Source of the DNA: an uncultured Flavobacteriaceae bacterium
GTDB taxonomy: Bacteria > Bacteroidota > Bacteroidia > Flavobacteriales > Flavobacteriaceae
Reading direction: 5' to 3'
DNA length: 48,896 bases
Assembly (NCBI GenBank): GCA_937923515.1
Contig: CALDUF010000073.1
Location: 1 to 48,896 of the forward strand
The notes below the pieces were generated by a model that had not been told where the DNA came from, did no database searches, and was given only the letters and a program-made list of their open reading frames with translations. Numbering within the stretch: the stretch's first letter is position 1; each line of letters begins with the position of its first letter. The translations under genes and the position numbers were made by a program. This document shows positions 43,498 to 46,855 of this stretch, in pieces.

Positions 43498-43791
43498 GTG
43501 TTACTACTTACCGATTTAGAAAAATACATGTTACCATGCCTAAATAAAAAGCTTTTAGGTATAGAATGTATGGGTTGTGGCTTACAACGTAGTGTGTCTT
43601 TATTAATTCAAGGGGAATTTGTTGCGGCATTTCAGATGTATCCAGCGATTTACAGCTTAATTGCGCTCTGTGTGTCTGTTGCTGCGAACGTTTTCTTTAA
43701 ATTTAAGCATTCAAACAAAATTATAACCGTACTAGCAATAGTAACGATTTCAACAATTATTATAAATTTCACAATTAAATTAATCAATTAA
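43498..43791 (+). CDS. DUF2752 domain membrane protein
   Basis: 97 residues (GTG start), or 87 if translation begins at the ATG at 43528 (MLPCLNKKLLG), which better fits the family start. The signature is the cysteine segment GIECMGCGLQRSVSLL followed by two to three hydrophobic helices. DUF2752 is widespread in Bacteroidota; the CxxCG motif is invariant but its function is unknown. The CCC-motif gene begins ten bases downstream, so the two probably form an operon. Confidence 0.82.
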   Translation: MLLLTDLEKYMLPCLNKKLLGIECMGCGLQRSVSLLIQGEFVAAFQMYPAIYSLIALCVSVAANVFFKFKHSNKIITVLAIVTISTIIINFTIKLIN

Positions 43792-43800
43792 AATTCATAC

Positions 43801-44124
43801 ATGAAACAAAAACTCAATCCAACAATCGTATATGTCCTAGCTATATTAGGTCTTTTATGCTGCTGCATAGGAGGACTTGGCTTTATCTTAGCTGGTATTG
43901 CATTTTTTATAGCTCAAAGCAAATTGAAAGATGCTAAATTAAATCCTGAAAATTATGACTTGGCTAGTATCAAATCTATGAACACAGCCAAAACAGTAGC
44001 ACTAGTTATTTTAATTATAAATATTCTATATCTCGTTATGACTATTTACAGAATATCCACAGTTGGATTTGATGAGTTAATGAGACAATCTCAAGAAATG
44101 ATGGAGCAAATGCAAAATCAGTAA
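43801..44124 (+). CDS. CCC-motif membrane protein
   Basis: 107 residues. The first helix contains three adjacent cysteines (LGLLCCCIGGLGFILAG), the hallmark of a small flavobacterial family named for this motif. A short soluble loop (LKDAKLNPENYDLASIKSMN) and a second helix follow, then a Met/Gln/Glu-rich tail (ELMRQSQEMMEQMQNQ). Function unknown. The pairing with a Cys-containing DUF2752 gene suggests a shared membrane role, for instance metal or thiol chemistry, but that is speculation. A terminator follows. Confidence 0.85.
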   Translation: MKQKLNPTIVYVLAILGLLCCCIGGLGFILAGIAFFIAQSKLKDAKLNPENYDLASIKSMNTAKTVALVILIINILYLVMTIYRISTVGFDELMRQSQEMMEQMQNQ

Positions 44125-44144
44125 AATTCGAATATTTTAACAGT

Positions 44145-44180
44145 AAAAAGCCTTGAAAACTTAAATTTTTGAGGCTTTTT
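44145..44180 (+). terminator. Terminator after the CCC-motif gene
   Basis: Stem AAAAAGCCT / AGGCTTTTT (44145-44153, 44172-44180) with a long loop and a T7 run. Confidence 0.75.
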
Positions 44181-44297
44181 TTAATTTACAACTGTACGCT
44201 TTTATTTTGAGTATGTTAAAGTTTGGGTTACAACAAAATAAGCTAAGAAATTATATAAATAATAACAAAAGCTAATACGTTTTATTTATTTAAAAGC

Positions 44298-44332
44298 AAA
44301 AAGCCAATAATCTTATAGATTATTGGCTTTTT
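44298..44332 (-). terminator. Terminator after tRNA-Pro
   Basis: 15-bp perfect stem AAAAAGCCAATAATC / GATTATTGGCTTTTT with loop TTATA, starting four bases beyond the tRNA 3' end on the minus strand. Symmetric, so it may also act as a second plus-strand terminator. Confidence 0.88.
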
Positions 44333-44335
44333 TTG

Positions 44336-44410
44336 TCGGGGTGGCAGGATTCGAACCTGCGACCTCCGCGTCCCAAACGCGGCGCGATAACCGGGCTACG
44401 CTACACCCCG
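44336..44410 (-). tRNA. tRNA-Pro(TGG)
   Basis: Cloverleaf on the minus strand: acceptor CGGGGTG / CACCCCG, D-arm region TAGCGTAGCCCGGTTATCGCG, anticodon stem CCGCG / CGCGG around loop TTTGGGA (anticodon TGG), and T-arm GCAGGTTCGAATCCTGC. The discriminator is A at 44336. The CCA end is not encoded. Confidence 0.97.
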
Positions 44411-44445
44411 ATTTTGGTTATCTAATTTCTATTTTAAGTTACTCG

Positions 44446-44453
44446 CAAAACTA
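44446..44453 (-). promoter_or_regulatory. Candidate -7 promoter box TAGTTTTG for tRNA-Pro
   Basis: Minus-strand TAnnTTTG match 35 bases upstream of the tRNA 5' end. A second match, TACGTTTG, lies at 44465-44472. No -33 TTG at 20 bases. Confidence 0.38.
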
Positions 44454-44517
44454 AGCAACTCTTTCAAACGTATTACTAAAAAATAAGCAAAATAGTAAAC
44501 CTATTTCTTAACTAGTG

Positions 44518-44536
44518 GTCACGCCTCTAGCGTGAC
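44518..44536. repeat. Perfect inverted repeat at the edge of the tRNA-Pro remnant
   Basis: GTCACGC-CTCTA-GCGTGAC, directly abutting the truncated tRNA copy at the point where its T-arm should begin. Confidence 0.85.
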
Positions 44537-44622
44537 GACCTCCGCGTCCCAAACGCGGCGCGATAATAACGCCAAGGCGTCATCTACGACAGGGCTACGC
44601 TACACCCCGATTTTGGTTATCT
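44537..44622 (-). pseudogene. Decayed partial copy of tRNA-Pro(TGG)
   Basis: Two blocks are identical to the intact tRNA-Pro locus. 44537-44566 equals 44361-44390 (30 bases: anticodon arm, variable region and part of the D-arm). 44592-44622 equals 44393-44423 (31 bases: rest of the D-arm, 5' acceptor strand and 13 bases of 5' flank). Between them 25 bases (44567-44591), containing the palindrome ACGCCAAGGCGT, replace two bases of the D-loop. The T-arm and 3' acceptor strand are missing. It cannot fold as a tRNA. The shared 5' flank indicates a tandem duplication of the locus, later disrupted. Confidence 0.9.
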
Positions 44623-44631
44623 TGTTTTTTG

Positions 44632-44715
44632 CGGAGAGACCGGGATTCGAACCCGGGCAACACTTACGCGTTGACAGATTAGCAATCTGCTCCATTACCA
44701 CTCTGGCACCTCTCC
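44632..44715 (-). tRNA. tRNA-Ser(GCT)
   Basis: Minus-strand type II tRNA: acceptor GGAGAGG / TCTCTCC (last pair G-T), D-arm TGCCAGAGTGGTAATGGAGC, anticodon stem CAGAT / ATCTG around TGCTA (anticodon GCT), long variable arm CAACGCGTAAGTGTTG and T-arm CCGGGTTCGAATCCCGG. Discriminator G at 44632; no encoded CCA. Confidence 0.97.
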
Positions 44716-44750
44716 TATTAAAGAACTTTCGCAACGTAAAATTGCGGATG

Positions 44751-44781
44751 CAAATGTATATTAAACATTATAAGAACGCAA
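44751..44781 (-). promoter_or_regulatory. Bacteroidota-type promoter for tRNA-Ser
   Basis: Minus strand: TTG (44779-44781), 20-base spacer, TACATTTG (44751-44758), then about 35 bases to the tRNA 5' end. Both elements and the spacing match the consensus. It may also drive the tRNA-Pro locus downstream. Confidence 0.7.
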
Positions 44782-44806
44782 CTATTTATTTAAATTTTTA
44801 AAAAAT

Positions 44807-46855
44807 TTATTCAGGATATTCTATACGCAAATGGTAAATATTTGCAAGCTTGTGTTTTAGCACTTTTTTTATAGATTCAATTTCTTTAAATGTAATGTTA
44901 GCATTTAAAAATTGCTCCTCTTCTATCTGCTTATTTATTATATTTTCTACAAATGCATCTATTTTAGTAGACGTAGGATTTTTCAAACTTTTAGAGGCTG
45001 CTTCAACACTATCGCACATCATTAAAATAGATGTTTCTTTACTAAAAGGCTTTGGCCCTGGATATCTAAACAAATCTGCATCAATTTCTTTGTCTAGCTC
45101 TTTGGCCTTTCTATAAAAATAATAAACAACGCTAGTGCCATGGTGTGTTCTTATAAAATCTATAACGCGGTCTGGTAAATTATTTTTCTTAGCTATTTCT
45201 ATACCGTGTATCACGTGGTCTGTTATAATTCTAACACTTTCTTTTGAAGACAATTCATCATGTGGATTAATTCCTGTTGATTGATTCTCTGTAAAATAGT
45301 TTGGCGTCATCATTTTACCTATATCGTGATACAACGCACCAACTCTTACCAACATAGCATTTGCACCAATTTCGTTTGCTGATGCTTCAGCAAGATTTGC
45401 AACATTTAACGAATGGTGAAATGTACCTGGAGACACATTCGATAATTCTTTTAAAAGCTTGGTGTTTGTATCTGATAATTCTAATAGAGAAACATCAGAT
45501 ACTAAACCGAACAACTTTTCATAAACATAAATTAATGGCTGTACAAATAGTGTTGCGAGTCCGCATAAAATAAACAGTAAAAATGTACTCCAGTCTATTG
45601 TTTCAATACTGCCCTCATGTATCACAAAAAATGCAAAATACGCAATGATATAAATAAGTGTTATTTGCCCAACAGAAATAAACAAATTAGCACGTTTGTA
45701 AAGCTCAGAAACCGTTAAAATTGTAACAATGCCTGCAAGAATTTGTAAAAACATATACTCATAACTATTTGGCACAATTGAGCCTAACAGTAACACCGTA
45801 ATTACATGAGTAAACATACCCAATCTTGCATCAAAAAATGCTTTTAGAACTAACGGTAATACACATAATGGCACTACATACAAATACTTTGAATTATAAT
45901 TTACTACCAGTGTAGTAATAAATACCATTAATAGAATATTAAAAAATATAAAAGTGACTTTGGTGTTATTCTCAAAAACCTCTACCCGATACTTTCTTAA
46001 AAACAGTAGCAGCATCAAAAGCGCTAAAGCAACCAATAAGGTATAGGCAAATAAAATCCAGCTGTAATTCGCATCATTCCATACCTGCGATTCGTACTCA
46101 GATTGTAAGGATTTTAACTTTTGAAATTTGTCGCCCTCTACAACTTCACCTTTAGAAATTAACAACGTTCCACGTTCTACACTGCCTCTGGTGTATGATA
46201 TAGTATTTAACTCATTCTGAAGTACTTTTTGTGTAAAGGATTTATTAAAACTTAGATTAGGTTCTACAATATCAAAAAACAACGACGTAAATCTAGGAAT
46301 ATAAGCGTTTAATCCTTCATTCTGCAAGCGTTTTGTAATAAACGATTTAACTTCGTCTTGATGTATTAGCTTGCCATACACTGTGGTTGTCTTTTTTACG
46401 TTTCCGCTTAAAATTTCAACAATTCTATCGGCTTCAAACGCATAATTATCAGAAAGTATCCCAAAGCTGTATAACGCCTCTAATGTTGCTTTTCCAGCTG
46501 TTTTTAAAGTATTTAAGGTGTTTTGAGATAGTGAATCTGGGAAGGTTCTTAAAAATTCATCTTCGTAAGTACGCGTTACACTTTTAATAACAGACTCATC
46601 CATATCAAAATACAAATGCGACTCGTTTTCAATTTTAGAAGTTTCTTTATTTAGCTCATCTTCAGCTTTTTTAATCGCAAAATTAAAAGGCGCGTATAAA
46701 TTTTCAGATTGCCAAGGCTTCCCTTTTTCAAAACTATATTTAAACTTTCCGCTCTTAGGAAACAAATACACAATTAAAAACGTAGTGCACACAAATAATA
46801 ACGCTTTATAAATCAAAGCATGATTTCTATATAGCTTATTTATGAAGTCTTTCAT
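44807..46855 (-). CDS. 7TM-HD family (PgpH-like) phosphohydrolase
   Basis: 682-residue membrane protein. An N-terminal helix (residues 15-30) is followed by a large extracytoplasmic domain (about 35-265), a bundle of seven hydrophobic helices (about 270-455) and a cytoplasmic HD domain with TFHHSLNVANLAEASANEIG and ALYHDIGKM near residues 475-512, plus later HHGTSVVYYFY. In Listeria, PgpH of this architecture hydrolyses cyclic di-AMP; the same role is likely here, though no c-di-AMP synthase is in the window. A minus-strand -7 box (TACATTTG, 46875-46882) is 20 bases upstream. Confidence 0.92.
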   Translation of the reverse strand: MKDFINKLYRNHALIYKALLFVCTTFLIVYLFPKSGKFKYSFEKGKPWQSENLYAPFNFAIKKAEDELNKETSKIENESHLYFDMDESVIKSVTRTYEDEFLRTFPDSLSQNTLNTLKTAGKATLEALYSFGILSDNYAFEADRIVEILSGNVKKTTTVYGKLIHQDEVKSFITKRLQNEGLNAYIPRFTSLFFDIVEPNLSFNKSFTQKVLQNELNTISYTRGSVERGTLLISKGEVVEGDKFQKLKSLQSEYESQVWNDANYSWILFAYTLLVALALLMLLLFLRKYRVEVFENNTKVTFIFFNILLMVFITTLVVNYNSKYLYVVPLCVLPLVLKAFFDARLGMFTHVITVLLLGSIVPNSYEYMFLQILAGIVTILTVSELYKRANLFISVGQITLIYIIAYFAFFVIHEGSIETIDWSTFLLFILCGLATLFVQPLIYVYEKLFGLVSDVSLLELSDTNTKLLKELSNVSPGTFHHSLNVANLAEASANEIGANAMLVRVGALYHDIGKMMTPNYFTENQSTGINPHDELSSKESVRIITDHVIHGIEIAKKNNLPDRVIDFIRTHHGTSVVYYFYRKAKELDKEIDADLFRYPGPKPFSKETSILMMCDSVEAASKSLKNPTSTKIDAFVENIINKQIEEEQFLNANITFKEIESIKKVLKHKLANIYHLRIEYPE

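Follow-up and report, generated by a model that had tools for sequence, protein, structure and literature searches.

A hairpin-bearing pseudo-tRNA-Pro in a Flavobacteriaceae genome as the probable left end of a tRNA-docked GIY-YIG element lacking its nuclease gene

Organisation of the tRNA-Ser/tRNA-Pro locus

The window, that is the whole 48,896-nt stretch of DNA analysed, belongs to a Flavobacteriaceae assembly (G000) of 2.71 Mb in 136 contigs that is 87.6% complete. Between genes for a DUF2752 protein and a 7TM-HD protein, the minus strand carries, in this order, a tRNA-Ser gene, a pseudo-tRNA-Pro, a spacer and an intact tRNA-Pro gene (Table 1). The octamer TACATTTG upstream of tRNA-Ser is presumably a -7 box, as it resembles the Bacteroidota consensus.

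Table 1. Features of the tRNA-Ser/tRNA-Pro locus (window coordinates)
Feature	Position	Strand	Evidence
Flanking gene, DUF2752 protein	43498-43791		
Intact tRNA-Pro (anticodon UGG), docked, presumably functional	44335..44410	-	ARAGORN; Rfam RF00005, 67.8 bits
Leader repeat copy adjoining intact tRNA-Pro, within exact 31-nt block	44411..44423	-	Repeat comparison
107-nt spacer with no ORF left; related elements have an ~80-codon GIY-YIG gene (~250 nt) there	44411..44517	-	
Whole pseudo-tRNA-Pro, probable left end of the element	44512..44609	-	MFE -43.3 kcal/mol, z -2.25
What is left of the pseudo-tRNA 3' acceptor strand	about 44514..44517	-	Sequence and comparison with related loci
Perfect 7-bp hairpin GTCACGC-TAGAG-GCGTGAC in the place of the T-arm	44518..44536	-	Sequence
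Exact 31-nt block: 3' side of D-arm, anticodon arm (44542-44558), variable loop	44536..44566	-	Repeat comparison
25-nt D-loop insert, foreign to tRNA-Pro; its hairpin spans 44566-44583	44567..44591	-	Sequence, fold
Exact 31-nt block: 5' acceptor strand and 5' side of D-stem (to 44609), 13-nt leader (44610-44622)	44592..44622	-	
tRNA-Ser (GCU), upstream gene, same strand as tRNA-Pro	44631..44715	-	ARAGORN
TACATTTG, presumed Bacteroidota-like -7 box upstream of tRNA-Ser	44751..44758	-	
Flanking gene, 7TM-HD protein	44807-46855		

Comparison of the window with itself revealed that both blocks of the pseudo-tRNA are exact over 31 nt, the one in the anticodon region being identical to 44360-44390 and the one at the 5' end to 44393-44423; 13 nt of the latter represent the 5' flank and lie outside the tRNA. 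A preliminary description of the locus had given the blocks as 30 and 31 nt, correct to within one base, and had rightly recognised 25 foreign nucleotides, unrelated to tRNA-Pro, that split them in the D-loop. It had also regarded the T-arm and 3' acceptor strand as missing; the T-arm is indeed gone, but a hairpin takes its place and a residue of the acceptor strand remains. The window has a single match to the palindrome TCACGCN3-6GCGTGA, and 0 of 100 shuffled versions have any.

tRNA prediction at both tRNA-Pro loci with ARAGORN and Rfam recognised the intact gene, along with tRNA-Ser, and did not call the copy. Over 43900-45000 only the two tRNAs exceeded the Rfam gathering score. A known RNA family other than tRNA was rejected, the plastid 3'UTR match in this interval being below its gathering score, as was a group I intron, with no group I match in Rfam up to E 10 in the same interval and an uninterrupted adjoining tRNA. 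No GIY-YIG match at 1e-6 was found on the window contig.

Related copies and occupancy of the orthologous site

A search of G000 itself revealed a second pseudo-tRNA with 97% identity on contig C59 (C59:27772-27867), and among 60 genomes searched a sister genome, G004, was found to contain three copies. The D-loop insert is common to the window, C59 and G004 copies. In G004 the pseudo-tRNA is followed by an ORF of ~80 codons encoding a GIY-YIG protein, with an intact tRNA-Pro at the end; the C59 copy is likewise followed by a GIY-YIG gene and an intact tRNA, while on contig C20 of G004 two tandem units precede a single intact tRNA. The locus had been interpreted earlier as a decayed tandem copy of tRNA-Pro; a partial copy with a palindromic insert it is, but a stand-alone decayed duplication does not agree with the same insert and hairpin on C59 and in G004. 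A simple tRNA pseudogene, which would share no structure with other loci, was rejected on the same grounds. Directly 3' of an intact tRNA-Pro, a region of C59 (L035, 2297-2435) consists of tandem units of ~40 nt with the hairpin of the T-arm position (T-slot) and the 3' acceptor strand; single units similar to these lie 3' of tRNA-Pro at L264 and L267.

The orthologous tRNA-Ser/tRNA-Pro locus was compared in 12 congeneric genomes, of which two (G000 and G004) are occupied, eight show nothing but a 16-21-nt spacer and two contain a different insert. Presence and absence at a defined site were thus found between species, not within one species. The different insert, at L009 and L011 (G010 and G007), exceeds the usual spacer by about 50-60 nt. 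At many empty sites (L006-L020) tRNA-Pro is preceded by a leader motif like GATAACCA, which is similar to the 3' end of the nuclease ORF and possibly a scar of former occupancy.

A GIY-YIG family docked on tRNA genes

With one G004 protein as a query, GIY-YIG matches at 1e-6 were obtained in 16 of 60 genomes, and 24 of the 29 loci from this first protein search contained a tRNA call (5 did not). A contig search with eight aligned proteins confirmed 234 relatives, the best 80 of which were kept. Among these best 80 of 234, a same-strand tRNA lies within 150 nt in 66, and in 64 of these it is tRNA-Pro; 10 have no tRNA call in the locus, several being contig ends, and in four the tRNA lies beyond 150 nt. 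Matches at 1e-12 occur in at least 91 of 299 Flavobacteriaceae genomes. For more distant homologues, 60 loci were picked by hand among the matches listed, mostly lower-scoring ones; 52 of them surround a tRNA call or come within 200 nt of one, in every case on the same strand, six have no tRNA call and two are far from one. Their tRNAs are specific for Ala, Val, Met, Arg, Asn, Asp, His, Phe and Pro, with one pseudo 'Stop' call. As a control, none of 13 HNH-nuclease loci from 60 genomes had a tRNA within about 2-3 kb.

On a tree of 130 proteins (excluding those with stops, those shorter than 60 aa and those with no same-strand tRNA within 200 nt), tRNA type requires 26 changes compared to a shuffled mean of about 69, with 0 of 200 shuffles as low, and docking side requires 11 changes compared to 31.8; the alignment has few columns and 68 of the 124 inner branches are open. 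tRNA-SeC and Stop calls were ignored, and one Ser label refers to a neighbour at a contig end. The clustering of tRNA type on the tree indicates that the choice of target is largely inherited with the protein, with switches. Regarding carriers, one family protein gave no match at 1e-6 against 50,697 phage records or against a plasmid collection, and phages and plasmids were rejected in this role on that basis. One locus, L246 (G190:C1:541000-544900), contains seven tandem GIY-YIG matches spaced by about 381 nt and no tRNA call. At L053, L062, L069, L071 and L076 (1406-1480, 1729-1803) ARAGORN labels apparent pseudo-tRNAs of the elements as tRNA-SeC(tca) or tRNA-Pro; false tRNA annotations of this kind are likely in Bacteroidota genomes.

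The G004 ORF encodes a GIY-YIG domain (PF01541, 2.5e-14). Residues Y4, Y15, R25, H29 and E61 (numbering of the first row), which we take to be the GIY-YIG catalytic positions, are invariant in all eight aligned proteins. For 42 of the 80 CDS (237 nt, no stop), the median dN/dS over 355 pairs differing by 3-25% with dS of 0.05-1.5 was 0.167, and no pair exceeded 1; the nuclease is under purifying selection. The predicted structure of 79 aa is a single compact domain (mean pLDDT 93.4). Homing endonucleases usually have a separate DNA-binding domain, which is absent from this predicted structure. The fold resembles UPF0213, Slx1 and the catalytic domain of I-TevI; the best Foldseek E-value, 1.8e-3, is weak, with a probability of 1.00 for the first two, and among the 50 Foldseek rows listed the TM-score is highest for Slx1 (0.69, rmsd 1.7 A).

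Anatomy of the elements

Two arrangements were recognised. In 5'-docked elements the order is the 5' part of a pseudo-tRNA, the ORF and the intact tRNA; in 3'-docked ones it is the intact tRNA, the ORF and the 3' part of a pseudo-tRNA, several with a second terminator. The periods of tandem elements are only 304-381 nt. In 5'-docked elements the ORF often runs into the tRNA gene before its first in-frame stop; this applies to 46 of the best 80 of 234 relatives, with the stop at position 8-10 in 37 of these, and to 19 of 28 other loci, with the stop at position 8 or 21. A candidate promoter-like sequence, TANNTTTG, was found within 70 nt upstream of the pseudo-tRNA in 23 of 49 cases.

A palindrome is present upstream of the ORF, in any slot, at 50 of the best 80 of 234 loci. 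In the Pro-UGG sort the T-arm is usually swapped, and the strict pattern of T-slot plus acceptor was found in 38 of the best 80 of 234; extra hairpins occur at the acceptor/D junction, in the D-loop or in the anticodon arm. The anticodon arm is swapped with no T-slot hairpin in Christiangramia (L086, L087, L097, L108) and Gillisia (L099, L110). In 10 of 15 aligned 5'-docked loci (Arg, Ala, Asp, Met) the homology ends at position 22, just past the D-loop. At the junction of the tRNA piece and the ORF, a palindrome with a stem of at least 7 was found in 19 of 30 alignable loci (of 50 loci, 20 gave no alignment to the tRNA piece on the other side), and the mean stem is 6.6 compared to 4.0 in ORF interiors.

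The closing pair of the slot-1 hairpin is C-G in 11 and T-A in 7 sequences, with no mismatch (18 of the 41 pattern-matching sequences). Alignment A2 comprises 26 of these 41 distinct sequences, two of the 41 being artefacts of the C59 array; its T-slot stem is paired in 26 of 26, with six of the seven pairs invariant, a constancy explained by the choice of the A2 sequences by that very stem. The TCACGC..GCGTGA palindrome is dispersed, with 2-21 sites per genome in six congeneric genomes and 0 for the reversed control; the T-hairpin was therefore rejected as an element-specific signature, as the palindrome also occurs away from GIY-YIG genes. At L182-L198 it is seen at terminator tips and in intergenic hairpins, as if tips were swapped genome-wide.

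ORF-less derivatives and the window spacer

A scan of 397 Flavobacteriaceae genomes with the strict T-slot pattern, which misses variants, found 34 sites in 16 genomes. A GIY-YIG match follows 21 of the 34, a few with an in-frame stop; three sites are cut by contig ends and five sit 3' of an intact tRNA-Pro. Five sites are of the 5' type with no usable ORF, namely the window, two in G231 and two in G254; the G231 pair represents tandem, internally deleted copies. The window copy is thus one of several ORF-less derivatives.

The window spacer shows no significant match when compared with all elements (44 of 200 shuffles equally good), and no ORF remnant is claimed on this result. Taken singly, the comparison with C59 was equalled by 7 of 1000 shuffles, that with G008 by 19 of 1000 and that with contig C11 of G004 by 892 of 1000. 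Since the spacer matches no lost ORF significantly, loss of the ORF at the window copy is argued by analogy.

The pseudo-tRNA resembles the local tRNA

The anticodon stems of tRNA-Pro vary by species (CCGCG, CCTGC, CCTCG, CCACG). Both arms could be read at 34 of 80 loci; among these, the anticodon arm of the pseudo-tRNA is nearest to the tRNA of its own locus in 32, tied in two and nearer to another variant in none. Mismatches total 12 compared to a permuted mean of 72.6, and none of 10000 permutations was as low; the genera are related, so this figure is not a probability. Both capture at insertion and later conversion fit this identity, consistent with the earlier suggestion that the identical blocks reflect either recency or conversion from the intact gene. 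Gene conversion alone, with no nuclease, could also keep the copies alike.

Proposed mechanism and alternative explanations

The window segment is interpreted, with a probability of roughly 0.7, as the left end of a tRNA-docked GIY-YIG element minus its nuclease gene. Such an element is tiny and probably selfish. From their sequences, these elements may be classed with free-standing homing endonuclease elements, with putative cutting and mobility. A full element, as found in relatives, comprises the leader and the 5' part of the target tRNA, one or more arms being replaced by palindromic hairpins, then the gene of ~80 codons for a single-domain GIY-YIG protein, and then the leader again with the whole tRNA, in which the ORF often has its stop. 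The nuclease would cut the tRNA gene wherever an allele or locus is empty. Repair from the occupied allele, by way of leader and tRNA homology on both sides, would then install the element, with one tRNA still functional and the other copy disarmed. Through the repeats that flank the ORF, elements would be able to multiply in tandem, to stay alike by gene conversion and to lose the ORF, which would be the condition of the window copy. The parts of this model that we infer are the cutting, the homing and what the hairpins do. At occupied alleles the pseudo-tRNA lacks its T-arm and the neighbouring tRNA is intact; the docked tRNA keeps all the sequence needed by a tRNA-specific cutter, and the model leaves the immunity of occupied alleles unaccounted for. 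Structure-directed (Slx1-like, hairpin) or RNA-directed action would avoid the problem of the intact tRNA as a target.

A GIY-YIG protein acting in the Slx1-like manner on hairpins or branched single-stranded DNA, with the junction palindrome as its substrate, and moving at tRNA arms in the way of REP/RAYT, is unlikely, though it is the alternative to which we give most weight. The long palindromes at the junction, the top TM-score of Slx1 among the rows listed and the joint change of both sides of the slot-1 closing pair argue for it. The palindrome is also found at terminators and in intergenic hairpins with no GIY-YIG gene, and is therefore not specific to the elements; moreover, there is no tyrosine transposase, and the constancy of the A2 T-slot stem counts for nothing in sequences selected by that stem. 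There is still less reason to view the pseudo-tRNA as a functional RNA (an mRNA 5' cap, a processing signal or an sRNA) that serves host or nuclease expression independently of mobility. Arm swaps that preserve a tRNA-like fold, covarying anticodon stem pairs, an acceptor that is 89% paired and the fold z-scores of the window copy and of a G004 copy (-3.51) are consistent with such a role, but host tRNA is the source of the covariation in the anticodon stem, and 12 of 26 sequences no longer have the distal acceptor pair. Covariation was accordingly rejected as proof of RNA function, the anticodon stem deriving from host tRNA variants and the A2 T-slot stem being biased by selection of the sequences. 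It is also very doubtful that the pseudo-tRNA transcript, directly upstream of the ORF and sharing the sequence of the target tRNA, would guide or position the nuclease as a specificity subunit, a tRNA mimic armed with hairpins, with RNase P cleavage at the docked tRNA limiting nuclease expression. With the ORF stop inside the tRNA, RNase P, if it matures the docked tRNA, would also deprive the nuclease mRNA of its stop codon.

Simple tandem duplication of the tRNA-Pro region and subsequent decay, without a mobile element at the locus, would leave direct repeats of tRNA and leader as expected from unequal crossing-over, and the window contains no nuclease gene; this explanation is nevertheless highly improbable, given that the same D-loop insert and T-slot hairpin occur at other loci and in another genome with the nuclease attached, and that most T-slot sites have the nuclease gene. 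Misassembly, by which two tRNA-Pro loci would have been fused in a draft that is fragmented, incomplete and furnished with repeats of the pseudo-tRNA kind, is the least credible of all, since the 107-nt spacer has no significant match to any other element and the Ser-pseudo-Pro order agrees with the occupied G004 locus.

If the interpretation as a tRNA-docked GIY-YIG element is true, a selfish element of ~300 nt parasitises essential tRNA genes without destroying them, and few autonomous mobile elements are smaller. In Bacteroidota genomes, such an element would account for many tRNA fragments that look out of place, selenocysteine-tRNA calls that are false and GIY-YIG ORFs of small size. It also raises the question of how an 80-residue nuclease with no extra domain selects one tRNA yet spares the needed copy; overlap of the ORF with the tRNA may couple nuclease translation to tRNA maturation.

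Comparison with known systems

GIY-YIG genes docked on tRNA genes in Bacteroidota were not found among the literature matches listed, a scope outside which most subscription papers and all bioRxiv preprints lie. A single compact GIY-YIG domain is shared with UPF0213/YhbQ-type proteins and Slx1 (best matches 1zg2, Slx1 4xlg and 7cq3), which are housekeeping or structure-specific nucleases and, to our knowledge, have no tie to tRNA genes. Another GIY-YIG family, Ssn in Neisseria, comprises single-strand nucleases.

Islands with tyrosine recombinases that insert at tRNA genes duplicate a tRNA fragment and keep a functional tRNA. The elements described here differ in that only a GIY-YIG ORF of ~80 codons, and no integrase, lies between the tRNA pieces at L035-L037, the periods are 304-381 nt and the fragment is disarmed by hairpins. 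In REP/RAYT systems, palindromic hairpins lie beside a small nuclease gene, that of the Y1 transposase TnpA_REP; the present elements share this layout, but encode a GIY-YIG protein instead of a Y1 transposase and are bound to tRNA genes.

SegB of phages T4/T6 is longer than the proteins of the present family. In the accessible text of the sources, it is a free-standing GIY-YIG gene adjoining tRNA genes, as here; it differs in being a phage gene, and that text mentions neither a pseudo-tRNA cap nor an ORF ending inside a tRNA for SegB. According to the same partial text, SegB cuts inside tRNA genes, with the motif RAWTSGAAC at 23 of 83 sites (PMC13096335), and drives tandem amplification (PMC13096335; PMC2988022). 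The motif can be read as complementary to the T-loop; the arm missing from the Pro-type pseudo-tRNA is the T-arm. SegB is the closest known system and a precedent for the putative cutting of tRNA genes by the GIY-YIG proteins described here.
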